From contig NZ_PEFL01000001.1 of assembly GCF_002754475.1 (NCBI RefSeq), positions 620,001-684,000 of the forward strand: DNA of 64,000 nt, given 5' to 3'. Positions 1,976-63,964 of the stretch are shown piece by piece; the first letter of the stretch is position 1; the number at the start of each line of letters is the position of its first letter. The translations under genes were made by a program, and so were the position numbers. The stretch comes from Comamonas sp. 26. GTDB taxonomy: Bacteria; Pseudomonadota; Gammaproteobacteria; Burkholderiales; Burkholderiaceae_C. The notes under the pieces were generated by a model, which searched no databases, was not told the DNA's origin, and saw only the letters and a list, made by a program, of their open reading frames with translations.

Positions 1976-2010
1976 ATGGCAGCAATATCGCCCCAATGGA
2001 TATAGCAAGT

Positions 2011-2050
2011 TTGATAGCATTCAGCGCTTATTGATACTGCGCTTGCAGGC
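2011..2050 (+). repeat. copy of the AGCGCTT intergenic palindromic repeat
   Basis: Contains TTGATAGC, then AGCGCTTATTGATACTGCGC, the signature of a short repeat that recurs between genes in this window (see 10272, 11786, 21553, 35270, 52064). It lies directly upstream of pabB. Confidence 0.6.
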
Positions 2051-2058
2051 GATTTGAC

Positions 2059-3243
2059 TTGAAAACCGTTCTTGACTTCACCGCACCCAGACAGGCCGAT
2101 GCCGCCCGCCTGCAGCATGGCTTTGGCGCGCCTGAAAAAGTCCTGCAGGCGCACAGGCCTGAGGACGTAGCCGCCGTGCTGGAGGCCGTGCAGCAAGCCG
2201 CCGAACAAGGCCAATGGTGCGTGGGCTGGCTGGCGTATGAAGCCGCCAGCGCCTTTGATGCTGCCTATGCCCAGACTGTGCACAGCGCAGTGCCCGGCCA
2301 GCCACTGGCCTGGTTTGGCGTACATGCCGCTCCGCAGGGGGCGCAAGCCGCGCCTAAGCCCCTGCCCACCCCAGCCGTGCAGTGGCAAACCGCCTTGAGT
2401 CGCGAGCAGTTTGATGCGCATATTGCGCGCATTCATGCTGCCATTGCCGCTGGTGAGTGCTATCAAATTAATTACACCGCCCCTTTGTCTGCAAAGCTTG
2501 AGGGGGCAGATTCTCTCAATTCCTCCGCGCTGGCTCAGGCCCTGTTTGCACGCCTGCAGCAGGCCCAGCCCGGCGGCTATGCCGCGCTGGTGGACAGTGG
2601 CAATATGCAGGTGCTGTCCGTATCGCCCGAGTTGTTTTTTGACTGGGATGGCGAGCAGATTCTGACTCGCCCCATGAAGGGCACAGCCGCGCGTGGTCAG
2701 ACGCCCGAGGCCGATGTGCTGGCTGCGCAGACCATGCGCGAGTCTGTCAAAGAGCGGGCCGAGAACGTGATGATTGTAGACTTGCTGCGCAACGACCTCT
2801 CGCGCATCGCCGAGCCGCATAGCGTGAAGGTGCCGCAGCTGTTTCAGGTGCAGGCCCTGCCAGCGGTCTGGCAGATGACGTCTGATGTGGTTGCGCGCAC
2901 CCGCGCCGGCGTGCGGCTGGTCGATGTGTTTGGCGCGCTGTTCCCTTGCGGCTCCATCACTGGTGCGCCCAAGCGCCAAGCCATGCGGCTGATCCGCGAG
3001 CTGGAGCCCCAGCCGCGCGGTGTGTACTGCGGGGCGCTGGGCGTGGTACGGCCGGGCTCTGCACCTGGGCGCATTCATGCGACCTTCAATGTGCCTATTC
3101 GCACCGTGGTGCTGCAAGCCGGGCAGTTGAGCTGCGGCATTGGCAGCGGAATTACGGCCAGCGCCAACGCGGGCGATGAATGGATGGAGTGGCAGCACAA
3201 GCAGGTTTTTCTGCGCGGGCTGGAAGAGGCAGGCCAGGGGTAA
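2059..3243 (+). CDS. pabB: aminodeoxychorismate synthase component I (PabB)
   Basis: A 394-residue chorismate-binding enzyme. It carries the anthranilate-synthase-I-type signatures: GECYQINYTAPL, SPELFF, the TRPMKGTAARG active-site lysine motif, ENVMIVDLLRNDLSRI, and LFPCGSITGAPKRQAM. PabB with glutamine from PabA makes 4-amino-4-deoxychorismate for folate synthesis. The PMKGT form (rather than the threonine-type PIAGT of TrpE) supports PabB over TrpE. The start is a TTG at 2059; no ATG gives a full N-terminus. The next gene, 3 bases downstream, encodes the class IV lyase for the following step, so the two form a p-aminobenzoate operon. No PabA gene is in the window. Confidence 0.93.
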   Translation: MKTVLDFTAPRQADAARLQHGFGAPEKVLQAHRPEDVAAVLEAVQQAAEQGQWCVGWLAYEAASAFDAAYAQTVHSAVPGQPLAWFGVHAAPQGAQAAPKPLPTPAVQWQTALSREQFDAHIARIHAAIAAGECYQINYTAPLSAKLEGADSLNSSALAQALFARLQQAQPGGYAALVDSGNMQVLSVSPELFFDWDGEQILTRPMKGTAARGQTPEADVLAAQTMRESVKERAENVMIVDLLRNDLSRIAEPHSVKVPQLFQVQALPAVWQMTSDVVARTRAGVRLVDVFGALFPCGSITGAPKRQAMRLIRELEPQPRGVYCGALGVVRPGSAPGRIHATFNVPIRTVVLQAGQLSCGIGSGITASANAGDEWMEWQHKQVFLRGLEEAGQG

Positions 3244-5146: not shown

Positions 5147-5827
5147 TCACACTACCTCATCAGGCGCCCTAGTTGGCGCCTGATTTGGGTTTTGCAGCAG
5201 TATTTGACGAGCCACAAACTGCTCAAAGACCTGGGTGAGGGTTGCAGGGGCTGCCGCATCCAGCAGCCAGTTCTGCAACTGTGCAAGGCCGAGCACAGCC
5301 GCCTCAAAGCTGGAGAGTTGACCGGGCAGATGGGCCTTGCGAATGGCGTAGCCAGAATCACCCACATCCTGCAGCGCCACGCGTGGCAAGGTTTGCAGGG
5401 CGGGGTTGAGGTAGAGCATTTTGCGGCTTTTGCGCCAGGTGCCGTCGATGATGACCAGTCGCAATTGCTCGGGTGCTAGCGGCCACGGCTGGGGCAGGGC
5501 GCTGGCCTGCGCAAGGCCCAGCGTCGCATCTTGCTCGTGCGTGTCGGGGTAGAGCAGCAGGCTCTGGCGCGGGGCCTGTTCATGCCAGCTGCCTTGCAGG
5601 GCTTGCTGCAGCGTCTGGGCATCAAACTGCTCGCCCACCAAGACCCGGCTGTGGGGCAGGCACAGGTGCAGCAAATGACCTGTGCCCTTGGCCTCATGGA
5701 CTTCCATGGGGTGCATGAGGATGAGTACTTCGACCTGATGCTCCACGGGCAGTGCCAGCGCGCAAATGCAGGTACGTAGCGCACGGTGGCAGTTGGGACA
5801 GCGAGGGCGTCGGTCAGTTTTGCTCAT
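5147..5827 (-). CDS. tapT: DTW-domain tRNA-uridine aminocarboxypropyltransferase
   Basis: A 226-residue protein of the TDD/DTW family (YfiP/TapT type), which adds 3-amino-3-carboxypropyl groups from S-adenosylmethionine to tRNA uridines. The N-terminus has a zinc-type cluster (C10, C13, C20, C22 in CPNCHRALRTCIC), then MHPMEVHEAKGTGHLL, LLYPD and the family motif region IIDGTWRKSRKMLYLNP. The length agrees with the Escherichia coli homologue. The exact tRNA position modified is inferred from the family. The gene ends 20 bases from the convergent yiaA. Confidence 0.85.
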   Translation of the reverse strand: MSKTDRRPRCPNCHRALRTCICALALPVEHQVEVLILMHPMEVHEAKGTGHLLHLCLPHSRVLVGEQFDAQTLQQALQGSWHEQAPRQSLLLYPDTHEQDATLGLAQASALPQPWPLAPEQLRLVIIDGTWRKSRKMLYLNPALQTLPRVALQDVGDSGYAIRKAHLPGQLSSFEAAVLGLAQLQNWLLDAAAPATLTQVFEQFVARQILLQNPNQAPTRAPDEVV

Positions 5828-5903
5828 AATTTGAGAGCGTCTTGCGCTTGATAGATATGCGGTAGAGGCAGTTTTTATCTTGAATCAATGCCCCTGAAAC
5901 AAC

Positions 5904-10264: not shown

Positions 10265-10271
10265 TGCTTGC

Positions 10272-10320
10272 TATGAAATATAGAGCTGAGAGCGCTTGAT
10301 TTATAAGCGCAAGAGGCTGG
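10272..10320. repeat. copy of the AGCGCTT intergenic palindromic repeat
   Basis: The core AGCGCTTGATTTATAAGCGC (10291-10310) is a near-perfect palindrome; it separates the DUF3460 gene from scpA. Confidence 0.65.
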
Positions 10321-10336
10321 TTTCATTGAAGAGGAA

Positions 10337-11757: not shown

Positions 11758-11785
11758 CATGGTCTCGCCATGCGGATGCTTTGAT

Positions 11786-11830
11786 TTTGATAGCTGCTAG
11801 CGCTTTATGCGTAAGCGCCAGGCAGCTAAA
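11786..11830 (+). repeat. complete copy of the AGCGCTT palindromic repeat
   Basis: Reads TTTTGATAGCTGCTAGCGCT, TTATGCGTAAGCGCCAGG and CAGCTAAAAA. It is the clearest copy: two nested inverted parts (AGCT...AGCT and AGCGCTT...AAGCGC). Confidence 0.75.
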
Positions 11831-12014
11831 AAGCTTGAAAAAATCATAAGAAAGTCAGTCGAAAAAGTCCTTAAAGAATTGTTGCGTTGCAGCAAATGAT
11901 GCGCGCAGGGCATGGCTTCATTCGTAAAATTAAGGGGTTACCCGGTGTTATCCGCGCCGGTTGGCCTCGGGTCTTTATCGAGACTCTGGGCGCTTATTTG
12001 CTGTCTTATCCGAC

Positions 12015-16705: not shown

Positions 16706-16796
16706 AGCAAGCAAGGGTCGCCCCGCAGCGATGGTGGCGTTCCCCTCCCGCGAAGCGAGAGAGGGGGAAGGCGCGTCAGCGCCTCAGGTGGAGCTT
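16706..16796 (+). repeat. copy of the GC-rich 3' repeat
   Basis: Starts AAGCAAGGGTCGCCCCGCAG, passes CCCTCCCGCGAAGCGAGAGA and ends GGCGCGTCAGCGCCTCAGG. It matches the element at 19205-19290 over most of its length and the one at 9325 partly. It lies 3 bases past the 3' end of the flavoprotein gene ending at 16799. Confidence 0.75.
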
Positions 16797-19204: not shown

Positions 19205-19290
19205 AAAGCAAGGGCCGCCCCGCAGAGAGTCCGTCGTCCCCCTCCCGCGCAGCGAGAGAGGTGAAAGGCGCAAAGCGCCTCAGAGGGGGT
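19205..19290 (+). repeat. copy of the GC-rich 3' repeat
   Basis: Starts AAAGCAAGGGCCGCCCCGCA, passes CCCCTCCCGCGCAGCGAGAG and ends AGGCGCAAAGCGCCTCAGAG. It begins right after the metG stop on the minus strand, as the other copies follow minus-strand stops. Confidence 0.75.
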
Positions 19291-21442: not shown

Positions 21443-21552
21443 GAGGGAACAGCTTTCACAGAGAACCTGCCATTCTAAAAGGGCTTGGCTCCAAGCTGCG
21501 GGAATGGGGTTTGCGGATGGGCTGGATGCCAATGGCAGGCACCCCGAATACT

Positions 21553-21660
21553 TTTATTTTGATAGCTTATAGCGCTTGATTTCATTGGGTTTTAGGCTGA
21601 AATCAATTTGATTTCCATGAATATCAGGCGCTAGCCGCTTTTATTGAGATAGCGCCGGCA
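21553..21660. repeat. double copy of the AGCGCTT repeat
   Basis: Two elements, TTTTGATAGCTTATAGCGCT (from 21557) and ATCAGGCGCTAGCCGC with GAGATAGCGC (21622-21656), face each other between metG and the diguanylate cyclase gene. Confidence 0.55.
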
Positions 21661-27678: not shown

Positions 27679-29811
27679 ATGCCCCATGAAAAAACCGTGC
27701 CGCTGGCCCAGCTTGCGCCGCAAAAGCTAAGCACCCAACAAGTTGAAGCTCTGAACCACGCGCTGGCGCGTTTTGCCAGCGAACCCGGTGGCCTGCTGCC
27801 ACTGCTGCATGTCGTGCAGCACTCGCTGGGCTTTATTCCGCGCGCCGCCGTACCGCCGATTGCCGACGCCTTCAAACTCTCGCGGGCCGAGGTGCATGGC
27901 GTCATTAGCTACTACCCCCATCTGCGTGAGCAGCCTCATGGTCAGACCCTGATTCAGATCTGCCGCGCCGAATCCTGCCAGTCACGCGGCGCTGATGCGC
28001 TGCTGGCCCATGCTGAGCAAGTGCTGGGCTGCAAGGCTCATGAAACCACCGCTGATGGCTGCGTAACGCTTGAGCCCGTGTACTGCCTGGGACTGTGCGC
28101 CCAGTCGCCCGCGCTCATGGTCAACGAGGTGGAGGTCCATGCCCACCTCACGCCGTTCAAGCTGGATGCATTGCTGCAGGATTTGAAGTCAAAACCGGTT
28201 ATAGCGCTTATGGATAAAGCGCAGGAAGCTATGGAATCAGGAGCGGACACCGTACGCATCTATGTGCCACGCGATGCCGCTGCGCTGGCCGTGGGCGCTG
28301 ACGAGGTAGCCCGCGTGCTGGCTGAGGAATGCGCGGCGCGCGACCTGCCTGTCGAGCTGGTACGCAATGGCTCGCGCGGTCTGTTGTGGCTGGAGACTCT
28401 GGTCGAAGTCGAGACCGCGCAAGGCCGCGTGGCCTATGGCCCGGTCAGCGGGGCCGACGTGCCCGGCTTGCTGGATGCCGGCCTGCTGCAAGGCGGTGCG
28501 CACGCGCTATGCCATGGCTTGACCGATCAAATCCCCTATCTGGCAAAGCAGGAACGCCTCACTTTTGCCCGCGTGGGAGTGATTGATCCGCTGAGCTTGG
28601 CAGACTATGCCGCCCATGGTGGCTGGCAAGGTCTGAAGGCCGCAGCGGTCATAGGGCCCGAAGCCGTGGTGCAGCAGGTGCTGGACTCGGGCCTGCGTGG
28701 GCGCGGTGGCGCGGCGTTTCCGGCCGGCATCAAGTGGAAGACGGTGGCGGCTGCGGCAGGTACGCAAAAATACATTGCTTGCAATGCCGATGAAGGAGAT
28801 TCGGGCACGTTCGCCGACCGCCTGCTGATGGAAGGCGACCCGTTCTGCCTGATCGAAGGCATGGCGATTGCGGCGCTGGCCGTGGGTGCCACCCAAGGCT
28901 ATATCTATGTGCGCAGCGAGTATCCGCATGCGATTGCCACATTGAAAGAAGCCATTGCCCGCGCCAGCGCGGCGGGCTGGCTGGGCGGCAATGTGGCTGG
29001 TAGCGGCCGGGCGTTTTATCTGCAGGTTCGCAAAGGTGCGGGCAGCTATGTCTGCGGTGAAGAAACCGCGATGCTGGAGAGCATCGAAGGCAAACGCGGC
29101 ATTGTGCGGGCCAAGCCGCCGCTGCCGGCCATCGAAGGTCTGTTTGGCCAACCCACGGTGATCAACAACGTGATCACGCTGGCGACCGTGCCTGTCATTT
29201 TGGCCAAGGGCGCTGCCTTTTATCAGGGCTATGGCATGGGCCGCTCGCGCGGCACGCTGCCGTTTCAGCTGGCCGGCAATATCGCGCGCGGCGGACTGGT
29301 GGAAAAAGCCTTTGGCCTGAGCTTGCGCGGGTTGGTCGAGGACTTTGGCGGCGGCACGGCCACGGGCCGGCCCATCAAGGCGATACAGGTGGGCGGGCCG
29401 CTGGGCAGTTATGTGGCACCCGCCGACTGGGACGATCCTCTGGACTACGAAGCCTATGCCGCCAAAGGCAATGTGGTGGGCCATGGCGGCCTGGTGGTGC
29501 ATGACGATGGGTCCAATATGGCCCGGCTGGCGCGCTATGCCATGGAGTTTTGTGCGATCGAATCCTGCGGCAAATGCACGCCTTGCCGCATAGGCTCCAC
29601 ACGTGGGGTGGAGGTTATCGATCGCATCACGGCCAACACAGGCGCTGTGCATGCCGCCAATGTGGCGCTGCTGGAAAGCCTGTGCGACCTCATGGAGGGC
29701 AGCAGCATGTGTGCCATGGGCGGGATGACGCCTTATCCGGTGCGCTCGGCGCTCACCCACTATCCGCAGGACTTCGGCATCGAGTCCGCAGCCGCCGTCA
29801 TGCCCGTCTGA
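27679..29811 (+). CDS. fdsB: fused FdsG-FdsB: gamma and flavoprotein subunits of NAD-dependent formate dehydrogenase
   Basis: A 710-residue fusion. Residues 1-170 match FdsG (NuoE-like [2Fe-2S] thioredoxin fold; ligands C95, C100, C136, C140). Residues about 190-710 match FdsB (NuoF-like): GRGGAAFPAGIKWKT for FMN, CNADEGDSGTFADR for NADH, and ESCGKCTPCRIGSTRG plus SMCAMGG for a [4Fe-4S] cluster. In Cupriavidus necator the two are separate genes. The linker (171-189, SKPVIALMDKAQEAMESGAD) is encoded in part by a copy of the AGCGCTT repeat at 28203-28232. No stop or frameshift interrupts it. An internal start at M185 with AGGAA just before it could still give a separate FdsB. The enzyme oxidises formate to CO2 and reduces NAD+. 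Confidence 0.93.
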   Translation: MPHEKTVPLAQLAPQKLSTQQVEALNHALARFASEPGGLLPLLHVVQHSLGFIPRAAVPPIADAFKLSRAEVHGVISYYPHLREQPHGQTLIQICRAESCQSRGADALLAHAEQVLGCKAHETTADGCVTLEPVYCLGLCAQSPALMVNEVEVHAHLTPFKLDALLQDLKSKPVIALMDKAQEAMESGADTVRIYVPRDAAALAVGADEVARVLAEECAARDLPVELVRNGSRGLLWLETLVEVETAQGRVAYGPVSGADVPGLLDAGLLQGGAHALCHGLTDQIPYLAKQERLTFARVGVIDPLSLADYAAHGGWQGLKAAAVIGPEAVVQQVLDSGLRGRGGAAFPAGIKWKTVAAAAGTQKYIACNADEGDSGTFADRLLMEGDPFCLIEGMAIAALAVGATQGYIYVRSEYPHAIATLKEAIARASAAGWLGGNVAGSGRAFYLQVRKGAGSYVCGEETAMLESIEGKRGIVRAKPPLPAIEGLFGQPTVINNVITLATVPVILAKGAAFYQGYGMGRSRGTLPFQLAGNIARGGLVEKAFGLSLRGLVEDFGGGTATGRPIKAIQVGGPLGSYVAPADWDDPLDYEAYAAKGNVVGHGGLVVHDDGSNMARLARYAMEFCAIESCGKCTPCRIGSTRGVEVIDRITANTGAVHAANVALLESLCDLMEGSSMCAMGGMTPYPVRSALTHYPQDFGIESAAAVMPV
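28203..28232 (+). repeat. AGCGCTT repeat inside the FdsG-FdsB reading frame
   Basis: AGCGCTTATGGATAAAGCGC followed by AGGAAGCTAT. It matches the intergenic copy at 11786-11830 (AGCGCTTTATGCGTAAGCGC, CAGGCAGCTA) closely and falls exactly in the domain linker. Confidence 0.75.
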
Positions 29812-29823
29812 GGAGAGAACACC

Positions 29824-32724
29824 ATGTTGGAACATTTGAAGCACACCGATTTTGGAACTCCCCTCAGCCTGTCTGAAGAGCTGGTCACGCTGCAAATTGA
29901 CGGCCGCGAAGTCACCGTGCCCAAGGGCACTTCGCTGATGCGTGCCGCCGTGGATGGCGGTATCAAAGTGCCCAAGCTCTGTGCTACGGATTCGCTGGAA
30001 CCTTTTGGTTCTTGCCGCCTGTGTCTGGTACAGATCGAGGGGCGCAAGGGTTATCCGGCTTCCTGCACCACGCCAGCCGAATCTGGCATGAAGGTGAAAA
30101 CGCAAAGCCCGCAGTTGCAGGAGCTGCGCAAGGGCGTGATGGAGTTGTATATCTCCGACCATCCACTGGACTGCCTGACCTGTTCGTCCAATGGCGACTG
30201 CGAGCTGCAGGACATGGCGGGCGTGGTGGGCCTGCGCGAGGTGCGCTATGGCATGGACGGTGCCAATCACTTCAAGGGCGCAGCCAAGGCTGAGGTCGAT
30301 ACCTCCAACCCCTATTTCAATTACGACCCCAGTAAATGCATTGTTTGCAACCGCTGCGTGCGCGCCTGCGAAGAGACGCAGGGCACGTTTGCGCTGACGA
30401 TCACGGGGCGCGGCTTTGAATCGCGCATTACGGCAGGGCAGGGCGATGGCTTCATGGCCAGCGACTGCGTGAGCTGCGGCGCCTGCGTGCAGGCCTGCCC
30501 CACGGCCACGCTGCAGGAAAAGACCGTGGTGGAGCTGGGCCAGTCCGAGCACAGTGAGATCACCACCTGCGCCTATTGCGGCGTGGGCTGCGGCTTCAAG
30601 GCCGAGATGAAGGGCGAGCAGGTCGTGCGCATGGTGCCGTGGAAAGACGGCAAGGCCAACGAGGGCCATGCCTGCGTCAAGGGCCGCTTTGCCTGGGGCT
30701 ATGCCACGCATAAGGACCGCATCACAAAGCCCATGATTCGCGCCAAGATCAGCGACCCCTGGCGTGAAGTGAGCTGGGAAGAGGCCATTGGCCATGCGGC
30801 CAGCGAGTTTCGCCGCATACAGGCTAGGCATGGCAAGGATTCGATTGGCGGCATCACCTCATCGCGCTGCACCAATGAAGAAACCTATCTGGTGCAAAAG
30901 CTGATCCGAGCCGCTTTTGGCAACAACAACGTCGATACCTGCGCGCGCGTCTGCCACTCGCCCACGGGCTATGGGCTGGGTCAGACCTATGGAACTTCGG
31001 CAGGCACGCAGACCTTCAAGTCGGTGGATCAGTCTGATGTGATCATGGTCATTGGCGCCAACCCCACGGCGGCCCATCCGGTGTTTGGTTCGCGCATGAA
31101 AAAGCGCCTGCGTGCGGGTGCCAAACTCATCGTGATCGACCCACGCGAGATTGACTTGGTCAGCTCTCCCCACATTCAGGCCGACTATCACCTGCAGCTC
31201 AGACCCGGCACCAATGTGGCCATGATTACCGCGCTGGCTCATGTGATCGTTACCGAGGGCTTGCTGTCCGATGCATACATCGACGAGCGTTGCGATGCTA
31301 AGTCCTTCGCGCAGTGGAAAGAGTTTGTGGCCAGACCCGAAAACTCCCCAGAAGCCACGGCAGAAATTACCGGCGTCGCCCCTGATCTGGTGCGCGGCGC
31401 GGCCCGTCTGTATGCGCTGGGCGCGCACGATCATCCAGCAGGTAAGCCAGTCAACGCCGCAATCTACTACGGGCTGGGTGTGACGGAGCATGCACAGGGC
31501 TCGACCATGGTCATGGGCATTGCCAATCTGGCCATGGCCACCGGCAATGTGGGGCGTGAAGGTGTGGGCGTGAACCCGCTGCGCGGCCAGAACAATGTGC
31601 AGGGCTCTTGCGATATGGGCAGCTTTCCGCATGAGCTGCCCGGCTACCGCCATATCTCGGACAGCACAACGCGCGCCGAGTTTGAAGCCGCATGGGGTGT
31701 GCAGCTGAACCCTGAGCCCGGTCTGCGCATACCCAATATGTTTGAAGCGGCGCTGGGTGGCAGCTTTCTGGGTCTGTACTGCGAGGGCGAAGATATTGTT
31801 CAGTCCGACCCCAACACCCAGCATGTGACGGCCGCGTTGGCAGCCATGGAATGCGTGGTGGTGCAGGACATCTTCTTGAACGAAACCGCCAAGTACGCCC
31901 ATGTGTTTTTGCCCGGCTCGTCCTTCATGGAAAAAGATGGCACTTTCACCAATGCCGAGCGCCGCATTTCGCGCGTGACCCAGCTCATGCAACCGCTGGC
32001 CGGCTATGCCGACTGGGAAGTGACGCAGCTGCTATCGAATGCGCTGGGCTACCCCATGAACTACGGTCACCCCCAAGAAATCATGGCCGAGATTGCCGCA
32101 CTCACGCCCACGTTTGCCGGCGTGAGCTATGAAAAGATAGAGCGGCTGGGAAGCGTGCAATGGCCATGTAATGAGGCCACCGAAGAGGCCGGTACGGACA
32201 TCATGCACAAAGATCAATTTGTGCGTGGCAAGGGCCGTTTCATCATCACCCAGTATGTGGCGACCGAGGAAAAAGTCACTCAGCGCTTTCCGCTGCTGCT
32301 GACCACTGGGCGCATCCTCTCGCAGTACAACGTGGGCGCGCAGACTCGCCGCACGGCCAACAGCCAGTGGCATAGCGAAGACAGGCTGGAGATTCATCCG
32401 CATGATGCCGAAGATCGCGGCGTTCGCGACGGCGACTGGGTGGGTATCGAAAGCCGTGCCGGTCACACGGTGCTGCGCGCCACGGTGACCGAGCGCATTC
32501 AGCCCGGCGTGGTCTACACGACCTTCCACTTCCCTGAATCGGGTGCCAACGTGATTACCACCGACAGCTCTGACTGGGCCACCAACTGCCCCGAGTACAA
32601 GGTGACGGCGGTGCAGGTTCTGCCTGTGGCTCAGCCATCTAGCTGGCAGCGTGGCTATGCGCAGTTCAATGATGAGCAACTGAGCCATTTGGCGGCCGCT
32701 CAGGTCGAGGCAGGAGCGCTGTAA
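29824..32724 (+). CDS. fdsA: formate dehydrogenase catalytic subunit FdsA (molybdenum)
   Basis: A 966-residue molybdopterin enzyme. In order: N-terminal [2Fe-2S] domain (CATDSLEPFGSCRLCLV), a His/Cys cluster site (SDHPLDCLTCSSNGDCELQ), two ferredoxin-type motifs (CIVCNRCVRACEE and CVSCGACVQACPT), the [4Fe-4S] motif CAYCGVGCGF, and the molybdopterin domains. The metal ligand is cysteine C377 (ARVCHSPTGYG), so a Cys and not selenocysteine enzyme. An AGGAGAG ribosome binding site precedes it, 12 bases after FdsGB. The active site resembles the oxygen-tolerant Cupriavidus enzyme. An FdhD/FdsC sulfurtransferase gene, usually needed, is not in this operon. Confidence 0.96.
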   Translation: MLEHLKHTDFGTPLSLSEELVTLQIDGREVTVPKGTSLMRAAVDGGIKVPKLCATDSLEPFGSCRLCLVQIEGRKGYPASCTTPAESGMKVKTQSPQLQELRKGVMELYISDHPLDCLTCSSNGDCELQDMAGVVGLREVRYGMDGANHFKGAAKAEVDTSNPYFNYDPSKCIVCNRCVRACEETQGTFALTITGRGFESRITAGQGDGFMASDCVSCGACVQACPTATLQEKTVVELGQSEHSEITTCAYCGVGCGFKAEMKGEQVVRMVPWKDGKANEGHACVKGRFAWGYATHKDRITKPMIRAKISDPWREVSWEEAIGHAASEFRRIQARHGKDSIGGITSSRCTNEETYLVQKLIRAAFGNNNVDTCARVCHSPTGYGLGQTYGTSAGTQTFKSVDQSDVIMVIGANPTAAHPVFGSRMKKRLRAGAKLIVIDPREIDLVSSPHIQADYHLQLRPGTNVAMITALAHVIVTEGLLSDAYIDERCDAKSFAQWKEFVARPENSPEATAEITGVAPDLVRGAARLYALGAHDHPAGKPVNAAIYYGLGVTEHAQGSTMVMGIANLAMATGNVGREGVGVNPLRGQNNVQGSCDMGSFPHELPGYRHISDSTTRAEFEAAWGVQLNPEPGLRIPNMFEAALGGSFLGLYCEGEDIVQSDPNTQHVTAALAAMECVVVQDIFLNETAKYAHVFLPGSSFMEKDGTFTNAERRISRVTQLMQPLAGYADWEVTQLLSNALGYPMNYGHPQEIMAEIAALTPTFAGVSYEKIERLGSVQWPCNEATEEAGTDIMHKDQFVRGKGRFIITQYVATEEKVTQRFPLLLTTGRILSQYNVGAQTRRTANSQWHSEDRLEIHPHDAEDRGVRDGDWVGIESRAGHTVLRATVTERIQPGVVYTTFHFPESGANVITTDSSDWATNCPEYKVTAVQVLPVAQPSSWQRGYAQFNDEQLSHLAAAQVEAGAL

Positions 32725-35212: not shown

Positions 35213-35269
35213 AAGGCAGAAACTAAGAATGAGAGATCACGCAAATGCTGAGCTTTTGTGATTGAAAAT

Positions 35270-35313
35270 TGATAGCGTTAAGCGCTTGATGAGTAAGCGC
35301 TATAGCTATTTTT
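35270..35313. repeat. copy of the AGCGCTT palindromic repeat
   Basis: TGATAGCGTTAAGCGCTTGA then TGAGTAAGCGCTATAGCTAT and a T-run. It follows the adenosine deaminase stop within a few bases. Confidence 0.7.
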
Positions 35314-35316
35314 TGC

Positions 35317-36387
35317 TTAAATATCGCTTGAGCTGCTCAGCACATCAAACTCTGCACTCCATTGCTGGTGCAGTGCACGTTTTTCGCTGTCATCAATCCA
35401 TGCTGCATCAATGCCGTTAAGCATGAATCCTTTGAGATCTGCGATGGAAAACCCAAAGTCGCTGACCATCTTGGTCCACGCACCCGTGGGGTCGATATGG
35501 TGCAGCGTGGGGTCGTCTGTGTTGGGATGGACGCGAAGGCCCATGGCGGGCATCTGGCGGATGGGGTGGTCCAGCGCCCAGCGCTCTGGCGCAAGTGTGC
35601 GCAGGTAGTAGGAGTTGCTGGGAACGACGGTGAACACAATACCCAGATCGGCGCAGCGCTGGGCCAGCTCGGGGTTGTTGATGACGGTGTAGCCGTGGTC
35701 CACGCGGTCTACCTTGAGTAGCTCCACAGCGGTCTGCAGATTGTTCCAGGGCAGGCCAAACTCGCTGGCATGGGCCGTGGTCTTGAGTCCGTTTTTACGG
35801 GCCAGCGCATAGGCCTCCAGAAACAGCTCGGGCGGGCGTTCGTTTTCGCGGTAATCGATGCCTATGCCGGGCACGTCATCGTGGCGGTTCTCCAGCATCC
35901 ATTGCACCATCTGCACGGCGGCTTCGGGCGGGGCTTCGCGGTCAATCGATGGAACAAGTCGCCCACGTATGCCGCAGTCTTTTTGCGCTGCCGCAGCGCC
36001 TGCAAGAATCGCTTGCTGGGCAGTGGCATAGCTCATGCCAGAGCATTCAACGGTGCCCGTGGGGTTCCAGAAAAATTCGGCGTAGCGCACGTTGTGCGCA
36101 GCGGCGTCTTGCAGGTATTCGTAGGTGATGCGCTCCAGATCGGCGGGCGTCTGCAGCAGCCACTGGTCAAGGGCGCGCAGCACACGCAGCACGCCCACGG
36201 GCTTTTCGCCGCGGGTGTAGAAGGCTTCGATCTCTTCCAGCGTCAGCGGTGCTTTGGAGCGCTGTGTCAGCTCGATAAACGTGTTTTTTCGAACAGTGCC
36301 CAGCAGGTGGCAGTGCAGCTCCATCTTGGGGATGGCGTGGGCAAAGGCGGTCAGTTCAGGGGTAGGGGCGGTCGGCGCGGCATTCAT
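35317..36387 (-). CDS. add: adenosine deaminase-family hydrolase
   Basis: A 356-residue amidohydrolase of the Add type. Zinc ligands are H25 and H27 in KMELHCHLLGTV, then HASEFG (about 230) and a catalytic region DRVDHGY, with NTDDPTLHH near residue 305. Deaminates adenosine (or adenine) to inosine (hypoxanthine) in purine salvage; other family members act on different aminopurines, so the substrate is not certain. It is divergent from the ABC permease gene, with about 100 bases between them. Confidence 0.87.
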   Translation of the reverse strand: MNAAPTAPTPELTAFAHAIPKMELHCHLLGTVRKNTFIELTQRSKAPLTLEEIEAFYTRGEKPVGVLRVLRALDQWLLQTPADLERITYEYLQDAAAHNVRYAEFFWNPTGTVECSGMSYATAQQAILAGAAAAQKDCGIRGRLVPSIDREAPPEAAVQMVQWMLENRHDDVPGIGIDYRENERPPELFLEAYALARKNGLKTTAHASEFGLPWNNLQTAVELLKVDRVDHGYTVINNPELAQRCADLGIVFTVVPSNSYYLRTLAPERWALDHPIRQMPAMGLRVHPNTDDPTLHHIDPTGAWTKMVSDFGFSIADLKGFMLNGIDAAWIDDSEKRALHQQWSAEFDVLSSSSDI

Positions 36388-56655: not shown

Positions 56656-56697
56656 TGAAGGCTCCAGAAATGAAGAACCCCGCTCAGTGGCGGGGCT
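56656..56697 (-). promoter_or_regulatory. terminator-RBS module, copy 1
   Basis: On the minus strand: CCCCG (pair 56691-56695/56678-56682) hairpin with loop CCACTGAG, TTCTTCATTT, then CTGGAGCC, then the start codon. The T-run is imperfect. Confidence 0.6.
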
Positions 56698-62281: not shown

Positions 62282-62320
62282 AGGGCTCCAGAAAGCAAAA
62301 AGCCCGCTCAGTGGCGGGCC
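62282..62320 (-). promoter_or_regulatory. terminator-RBS module, copy 4
   Basis: GCCCGC (62302-62307) pairs with GCGGGC (62314-62319), loop TCAGTG; minus strand continues TTTTTGCTTTCTGGAGCCCT then ATG. Confidence 0.7.
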
Positions 62321-63924: not shown

Positions 63925-63964
63925 GGAGTCTCCAGAAACAAAAAAGCCACCTCAGTGGGTGGCT
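63925..63964 (-). promoter_or_regulatory. terminator-RBS module, copy 5
   Basis: GCCACC (63946-63951) pairs with GGTGGC (63958-63963); minus strand continues TTTTTTGTTTCTGGAGACTC before the rdgC ATG. Confidence 0.7.

Follow-up and report, generated by a model that had tools for sequence, protein, structure and literature searches.

The window analysed here, a stretch of 64,000 nucleotides, contains an open reading frame (ORF) predicted to encode an FdsG-FdsB fusion polypeptide, followed by a putative fdsA gene (Table 1). The 710-residue product carries the Pfam domains 2Fe-2S_thioredx (residues 27-170), Complex1_51K (residues 335-505) and NADH_4Fe-4S (residues 617-699), so that PF01257, PF01512 and PF10589 all lie within one open frame, the arrangement expected of an FdsG-FdsB fusion. 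The larger, C-terminal part is homologous to FdsB of NAD-dependent formate dehydrogenases in which FdsG and FdsB are separate proteins (PDB entries 6vw7/6vw8 and 6tg9/6tga); chain 6vw7_B matches residues 193-704. Unlike in the Comamonas fusion, FdsB forms its own chain of 500-520 residues in these structures.

Table 1. Features of the fused gene and members of the repeat family (window positions, unless a locus handle precedes them)
Feature	Position	Strand	Evidence or remark
Fused fdsG-fdsB gene	27679..29811	+	710 aa, open frame without stop
FdsG part, thioredoxin-like 2Fe-2S domain, residues 27-170	27757..28188	+	PF01257 match
Copy of ~66-bp dispersed repeat, encoding linker residues 168-189, DLKSKPVIALMDKAQEAMESGA	~28179..28244	+	profile match, 58.7 bits over 28179-28248
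Palindromic core GCGCTT-N7-AAGCGC	28204..28222	+	exact match
FdsB part, NADH/FMN-binding and 4Fe-4S, residues 193-710	28255..29808	+	Pfam and 6vw7_B match
fdsA, formate dehydrogenase alpha-subunit-like	29824..32724	+	966-aa ORF; putative name, from sequence alone
Repeat family member	10266..10335	-	55.1 bits
Repeat family member	11774..11843	-	51.2 bits
Repeat family member	35256..35325	-	54.0 bits
Repeat family member, imperfect core	5818..5887	-	53.5 bits
Repeat family member, imperfect core	1998..2067	-	34.8 bits
Repeat family member, decayed	21546..21615	-	30.3 bits
hemD (PF02602) with in-frame repeat in variable loop	L201:926-1759, repeat at 1501	-	52.0 bits
Long ORF with LPD3 domain, third in-frame copy, NQPLALVNKAQVATES	L158:634-3018, repeat at 1501	+	verified copy

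The DNA that encodes the linker between the two parts of the fusion is a copy of a dispersed repeat. This had been proposed in the initial annotation from a 20-nucleotide stretch (20-mer) at 28203-28222, which is indeed found there, in frame within the fused ORF, and the observation is confirmed in a form somewhat stronger than originally put. A position profile was drawn from 38 other copies in the same genome (35 fetched loci and three window copies, the linker copy being excluded) and describes an asymmetric unit of ~66 bp. The ends of the linker copy were set by where conservation starts and stops across the 38 copies, not by an empty site, and the unit so delimited is longer than first described, taking up almost all of the linker from the FdsG domain to the first strand of FdsB. 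Outside the core, the linker flanks score 34.5 bits, a value reached at 0 of 127,802 window positions and falling within the range of the 38 profile copies when each is left out in turn (3.4 to 42.3). The linker thus has both the exact core and the conserved flanks by which members of the family are recognized. Genome-wide, the core occurs at 95 sites, compared with 1 for a reversed-pattern control. With up to three mismatches, the 20-mer has three matches in the window (28203 itself, 2023 and 11800) and none in shuffled sequences. The three other sites to which the linker had been likened (10272, 11786 and 35270) are all family members by profile, but only 11786 lies within three mismatches of the 20-mer; what 10272 and 35270 have in common with the linker copy is the perfect core. 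Repeats of other kinds are also present in the window: a sequence in three copies at 56660-56694, 62284-62318 and 63928-63962 (GGCTCCAGAAA...CTCAGTGG), by its look a terminator-type inverted repeat, and a 66-nt direct repeat pair at 16709-16774 and 19206-19271, the copies of which are 83% alike.

The family is mostly intergenic. We inspected 53 of the 95 core sites, all lying outside the window, and verified 52 by their flanks; according to our own codon-usage gene calls, rather than an annotation, 50 of these 52 copies are intergenic and two lie within ORFs. That a mostly intergenic repeat spells the FdsG-FdsB linker, as the initial annotation held, is thus borne out. The genes flanking the 50 intergenic copies are convergent in 18 cases, co-directional in 29, divergent in two and incomplete in one, while window gaps of at least 40 bp are convergent in two cases, co-directional in 33 and divergent in five; on these counts, the copies seem to favour gene ends. 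Where the flanking genes are co-directional, the copy lies on the opposite strand in 19 cases and on the same strand in 10. The number of core sites per genome ranges from 9 to 95 in the 14 FDS-bearing Comamonas genomes, from 3 to 6 in four Delftia and from 1 to 3 in four Curvibacter (controls 0-3), and in Delftia it is near background (control 0-1). Counts vary patchily, from 0 to 441, over 299 genomes of the wider family, and flanks of the type described here accompany 14 of the 16 copies read in another genus. Four genomes from other genera of the family (G195, G075, G145 and G070) contain 196-441 core copies, above the number in Comamonas. A search for sites cleanly lacking the repeat, which would show its ends, terminal inverted repeats and any target-site duplication as in a MITE, gave none among 17 candidates; the intergenic ones were either diverged copies or unalignable by eye, and another proved to be the fds linker of Delftia.

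The evidence that would link the repeat to RAYT-like transposases (PF01797), the mark of RAYT-mobilised REP palindromes, is mixed. In a first set of 26 genomes, PF01797 scored above the cut-off in 20/20 repeat-rich and 2/6 repeat-poor genomes, a link not borne out by a second set of 65, in which it did so in 20/24 rich and 29/41 poor ones; pooling gives 40/44 and 31/47, respectively, although the two sets disagree and the counts ignore the kinship of the genomes. Three repeat-rich genomes of one genus had no PF01797 match. Repeats lie near the match in two of six loci examined (L242 and L244), with none near it in L245 (G008), L246 or L247 (G034). The one Y1_Tnp (PF01797) match in the genome of the window (G000:C2:578581-578862, locus L246) has no repeat nearby, and G075 contains 20 PF01797 matches, one of which (L242) does.

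Besides the linker, hemD and a long ORF that encodes an LPD3 domain (Table 1) contain the repeat in frame, and both read it with the orientation and frame that it has in the linker. This agreement of three in three is not significant as a frame preference: the frame in question is open in 17 of 53 copies, and two reverse frames are open in 18 and 14 of them. Homologues of hemD were found in 24 of 41 genomes, and the DNA of 12 was examined. In the eight other Comamonas-like rows the place of the decayed copy outscores the rest of the same gene, with scores of 2.0 to 41.7 in six and of -3.5 and -6.1 in the remaining two. The repeat was not matched in the two Delftia homologues examined, which are ~7 residues shorter there, nor in one further member of the genus (L225). 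hemD is therefore a second coding case with the same distribution as the linker, present in Comamonas and absent from Delftia, in which no fusion is involved.

Traces of the repeat extend through the linkers of Comamonas relatives. In 19/19 Comamonas rows, representing 14 distinct genomes, the best linker score is above all 3504 control positions of the same gene, and that score always falls 73-82 nt ahead of the IYVPRD codons, in a single codon phase. The scores themselves fall from 58.7 to -10.8 bits. The two halves of the unit differ in this respect: the left half scores 29.1 bits in the source genome's row (L001) and 22.6 bits in L002 but no more than 5.5 bits in the remaining 12 Comamonas genomes; for the right half, 10 of the 14 genomes reach high scores (20-32 bits). 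Delftia linkers, in contrast, are at control level in 6/6 rows from four distinct genomes (-54.5 to -59.5). In two of these four genomes the control-level best position falls at the homologous place, which says little about a trace of the repeat given that an unrelated fusion (L126) behaves much alike. Three of the four Delftia linkers start with QCRQP (RCRVP in the fourth), as do those of P0032, P0033, P0038 and P0040 (QCRTP in P0042), the P rows being compared at the protein level only. A start of this type reads as that of an older, repeat-free linker. P0031 (Comamonas humi), the genome of which is not among the 399 searched, has the linker GKAPAAIKS, which may represent a decayed repeat copy, and it falls outside the main repeat-bearing clade.

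According to the initial annotation, a repeat located between two separate genes seemed to have become coding and thereby to have made the fusion, and close relatives were expected to include separate fdsG and fdsB genes with the same repeat between them. The junctions of relatives do not support this path. FDS is present in 18 of 53 genomes of the genus, where Comamonas and Delftia were named from linkers identical to those of named records (L078-L083, L101) and otherwise by tree position; in all 18, four Delftia included, the genes are fused and the linker is in frame. FdsB was matched at 133 loci: 26 carry a fused gene, in 14 the two genes share a frame with at least one stop between them, in 91 the frames differ, and two lack a readable FdsG. 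The 26 fused rows comprise the 18 genomes of the genus, seven duplicates of records and, as an independent case, a fusion in a Maricaulaceae MAG (L126); duplicates also occur among the other rows, and the 131 usable rows reduce to 114 distinct ones. None of the 105 non-fused rows, some of which are duplicate records of one genome, contains the repeat (best score -27.6), and in 91 of the 105 the two genes are in different frames. Stop and start of split pairs commonly overlap, often as ATGA, which leaves no space for a repeat. Three split loci of other genera (L067, L068 and L122) have ~50-100 extra bases between the genes, perhaps other spacer repeats. In the Curvibacter-type loci (L046-L049, L085-L088 and L090), the genes share a frame, and only a TGA and one further codon precede the ATG, an arrangement that would be close to fusion or to stop readthrough. 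It was rejected as a pre-fusion state because the tree separates Curvibacter from Comamonas, which makes its frame relation independent.

Fused proteins without the repeat also exist elsewhere. Among the 120 matches listed, of 3037 in a large protein database, repeat-free fused proteins occur near Delftia and Comamonas, and farther off there are FdsG-FdsB fusions in Zoogloea, Steroidobacteraceae and Orrella. These share the same chain of PF01257, PF01512 and PF10589 and a similar total length, and their linkers, compared by eye at the protein level only, bear no trace of the repeat peptide. Fusion of the two genes consequently needs no repeat. HoxF of NAD-reducing hydrogenases, which in some species is a fusion of NuoE-like and NuoF-like parts, offers a precedent for the joint, although the PDB chains concerned (8oh5_B, named HoxF, residues 197-699; 5xf9_A, residues 326-699) match only in the FdsB part. 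In a tree of FdsG and FdsB built without the linker, Comamonas and Delftia form one fused clade, with split relatives outside it. By tree position, the Zoogloea, Steroidobacteraceae and Orrella fusions also lie outside this clade. In a more careful tree of 34 rows, from which four of the 14 Comamonas rows (L007-L010) were omitted, the repeat-bearing rows group together (100/99), and only 2% of bootstrap trees have a branch that parts the repeat-free fused rows from all others. Nevertheless, in an AU test with P0029-P0031 excluded, a single clade of the clearly repeat-free fused rows is not rejected (p-AU 0.351), so that these data are compatible with a repeat present in the ancestor and lost once. 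A wide fusion without the repeat, which had been named in advance as evidence against the repeat as its origin, is thus largely what is found, in four Delftia and several other groups, with the one-loss tree as the part that it leaves standing. Taken as a whole, the initial interpretation is partly supported.

The order that best accounts for these observations, to which we assign a probability of about two in three, is that the fusion came first. In this model, fdsG and fdsB would have been joined in the common ancestor of Comamonas and Delftia through a linker other than the repeat. A copy of the ~66-bp palindromic repeat would later have entered this linker on the Comamonas branch in a stop-free frame and become its coding sequence, after which it would have decayed to differing degrees between species, its peptide of ~22 residues acting as a tolerated spacer between the two domains. 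Several observations argue for this order: all 18 FDS-bearing genomes of the genus are fused and the fused and the repeat-bearing clades are each well supported; the core is near background in Delftia and frequent in Comamonas; the QCRQP start is common to Delftia and the P0032 group; and the hemD copy is likewise found in Comamonas and missing from two Delftia homologues. On the other side stand the p-AU value, which permits entry of the repeat at the fusion followed by one loss, the P0031 linker, as a candidate decayed repeat outside the main clade, and the length of the Delftia linkers (141-162 nt, compared with mostly 98-134 nt in split junctions), which would be expected had they received the same insertion.

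An order in which the repeat gave rise to the fusion is less likely. In its fullest form, this alternative holds that the repeat was inserted upstream of the overlapping stop and start in the common ancestor, shifted the fdsG frame into that of fdsB, bypassed the stop and later decayed in Delftia and other lineages. The split junctions with shifted frames do stand almost uniformly in one relation (90 of 91 in shift 2), fused linkers are ~50 nt longer, which is near the size of the repeat, and the patchy presence of the family in the wider family, with up to 441 cores per genome, makes an early presence conceivable; a single loss, as said, is not rejected. However, none of the 105 non-fused rows contains the repeat, Delftia linkers score as controls do and at least one extra loss has to be assumed. 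The argument from length was dropped because repeat-free linkers in unrelated fused lineages are about equally long, which explains the length without any repeat. We therefore hold this course of events to be rather unlikely. A related proposal has one event at the base of Comamonas and Delftia: a palindromic repeat of 3n+1 nt would have entered where the stop and start of the two co-transcribed genes overlap, changing the frame, carrying translation past the stop and providing the spacer. This is also rather unlikely; if true, a mobile intergenic repeat would have created a lasting two-domain enzyme subunit.

Two further alternatives concern the later history of the copy. The strength of the left half in only the source genome and its nearest relative, against a right half strong in most Comamonas genomes, could reflect repeated entry into the linker or gene conversion from other genomic copies, giving the copy a younger look in these two genomes. 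The same lineage is the richest in copies (92-95), so that slower decay fits as well, and the profile was drawn from the source genome's own copies; repeated entry or a refreshed copy is considered quite improbable. Even less probable is that the repeat was kept in the linker as a nucleic-acid element, i.e., a hairpin, a pause site or an internal start for FdsB. The source genome does have a perfect palindromic core and an in-frame ATG behind AGGAA at 28231, but across 13 linkers compared no other genome has a perfect palindromic stem and few of the ATG codons survive, the second being ATT already in the nearest relative, and the sole Rfam match near the linker is far under the gathering score. 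The loss of stem and ATG codons fits a peptide that acts as a spacer better than it fits a hairpin or a start site, and we infer that the function kept is most simply that of a passive spacer. Finally, a chance resemblance of the coding linker to the repeat can be dismissed in view of the core counts, the flank score, the place and codon phase kept in orthologous linkers and the linker scores above own-gene controls in relatives, and no support for it was found.

The best reading of the fused gene is one by analogy: on the Comamonas branch, a protein-coding palindromic repeat, which would work much like the Rickettsia palindromic elements (RPE), appears to have colonised the linker of a gene that had been fused beforehand. 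That small palindromic repeats can be joined in frame to genes is established for Rickettsia and other genera. Repeat fusions of this kind in several genera are among the material reviewed in PMC2229807, and PMC10969869 describes in-frame fusions via intragenic MITEs as not unusual; PMC2755013 yielded only CRISPR repeats. Like RPE and bacterial MITE-type repeats, the Comamonas repeat is palindromic, dispersed and also intergenic, with tolerated in-frame copies in conserved genes, and it shares with RPE the occurrence of in-frame copies beside intergenic ones (the linker copy, and two coding and 50 intergenic copies among 52). It is not an RPE itself: these elements are specific to Rickettsia and 105-150 bp long (PMC2229807 and PMC10969869), while the Comamonas repeat is ~66 bp long and differs in sequence and organism. 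The peptide it encodes also differs from those of RPE in serving as a linker between two fused domains. No description of the Comamonas repeat or of a repeat-derived FdsG-FdsB linker was recognised in the open-access literature searched.

In all, the fds locus cleanly illustrates how a repeat found mostly between genes has become the interdomain linker of a conserved enzyme, with a second coding case in hemD and with stages of its decay spread over 14 genomes. The entry of small palindromic repeats into genes in frame, best known in Rickettsia, thus occurs in Comamonas too, and the locus carries a warning that a repeat found in the joint of a fusion is not necessarily the cause of that fusion.
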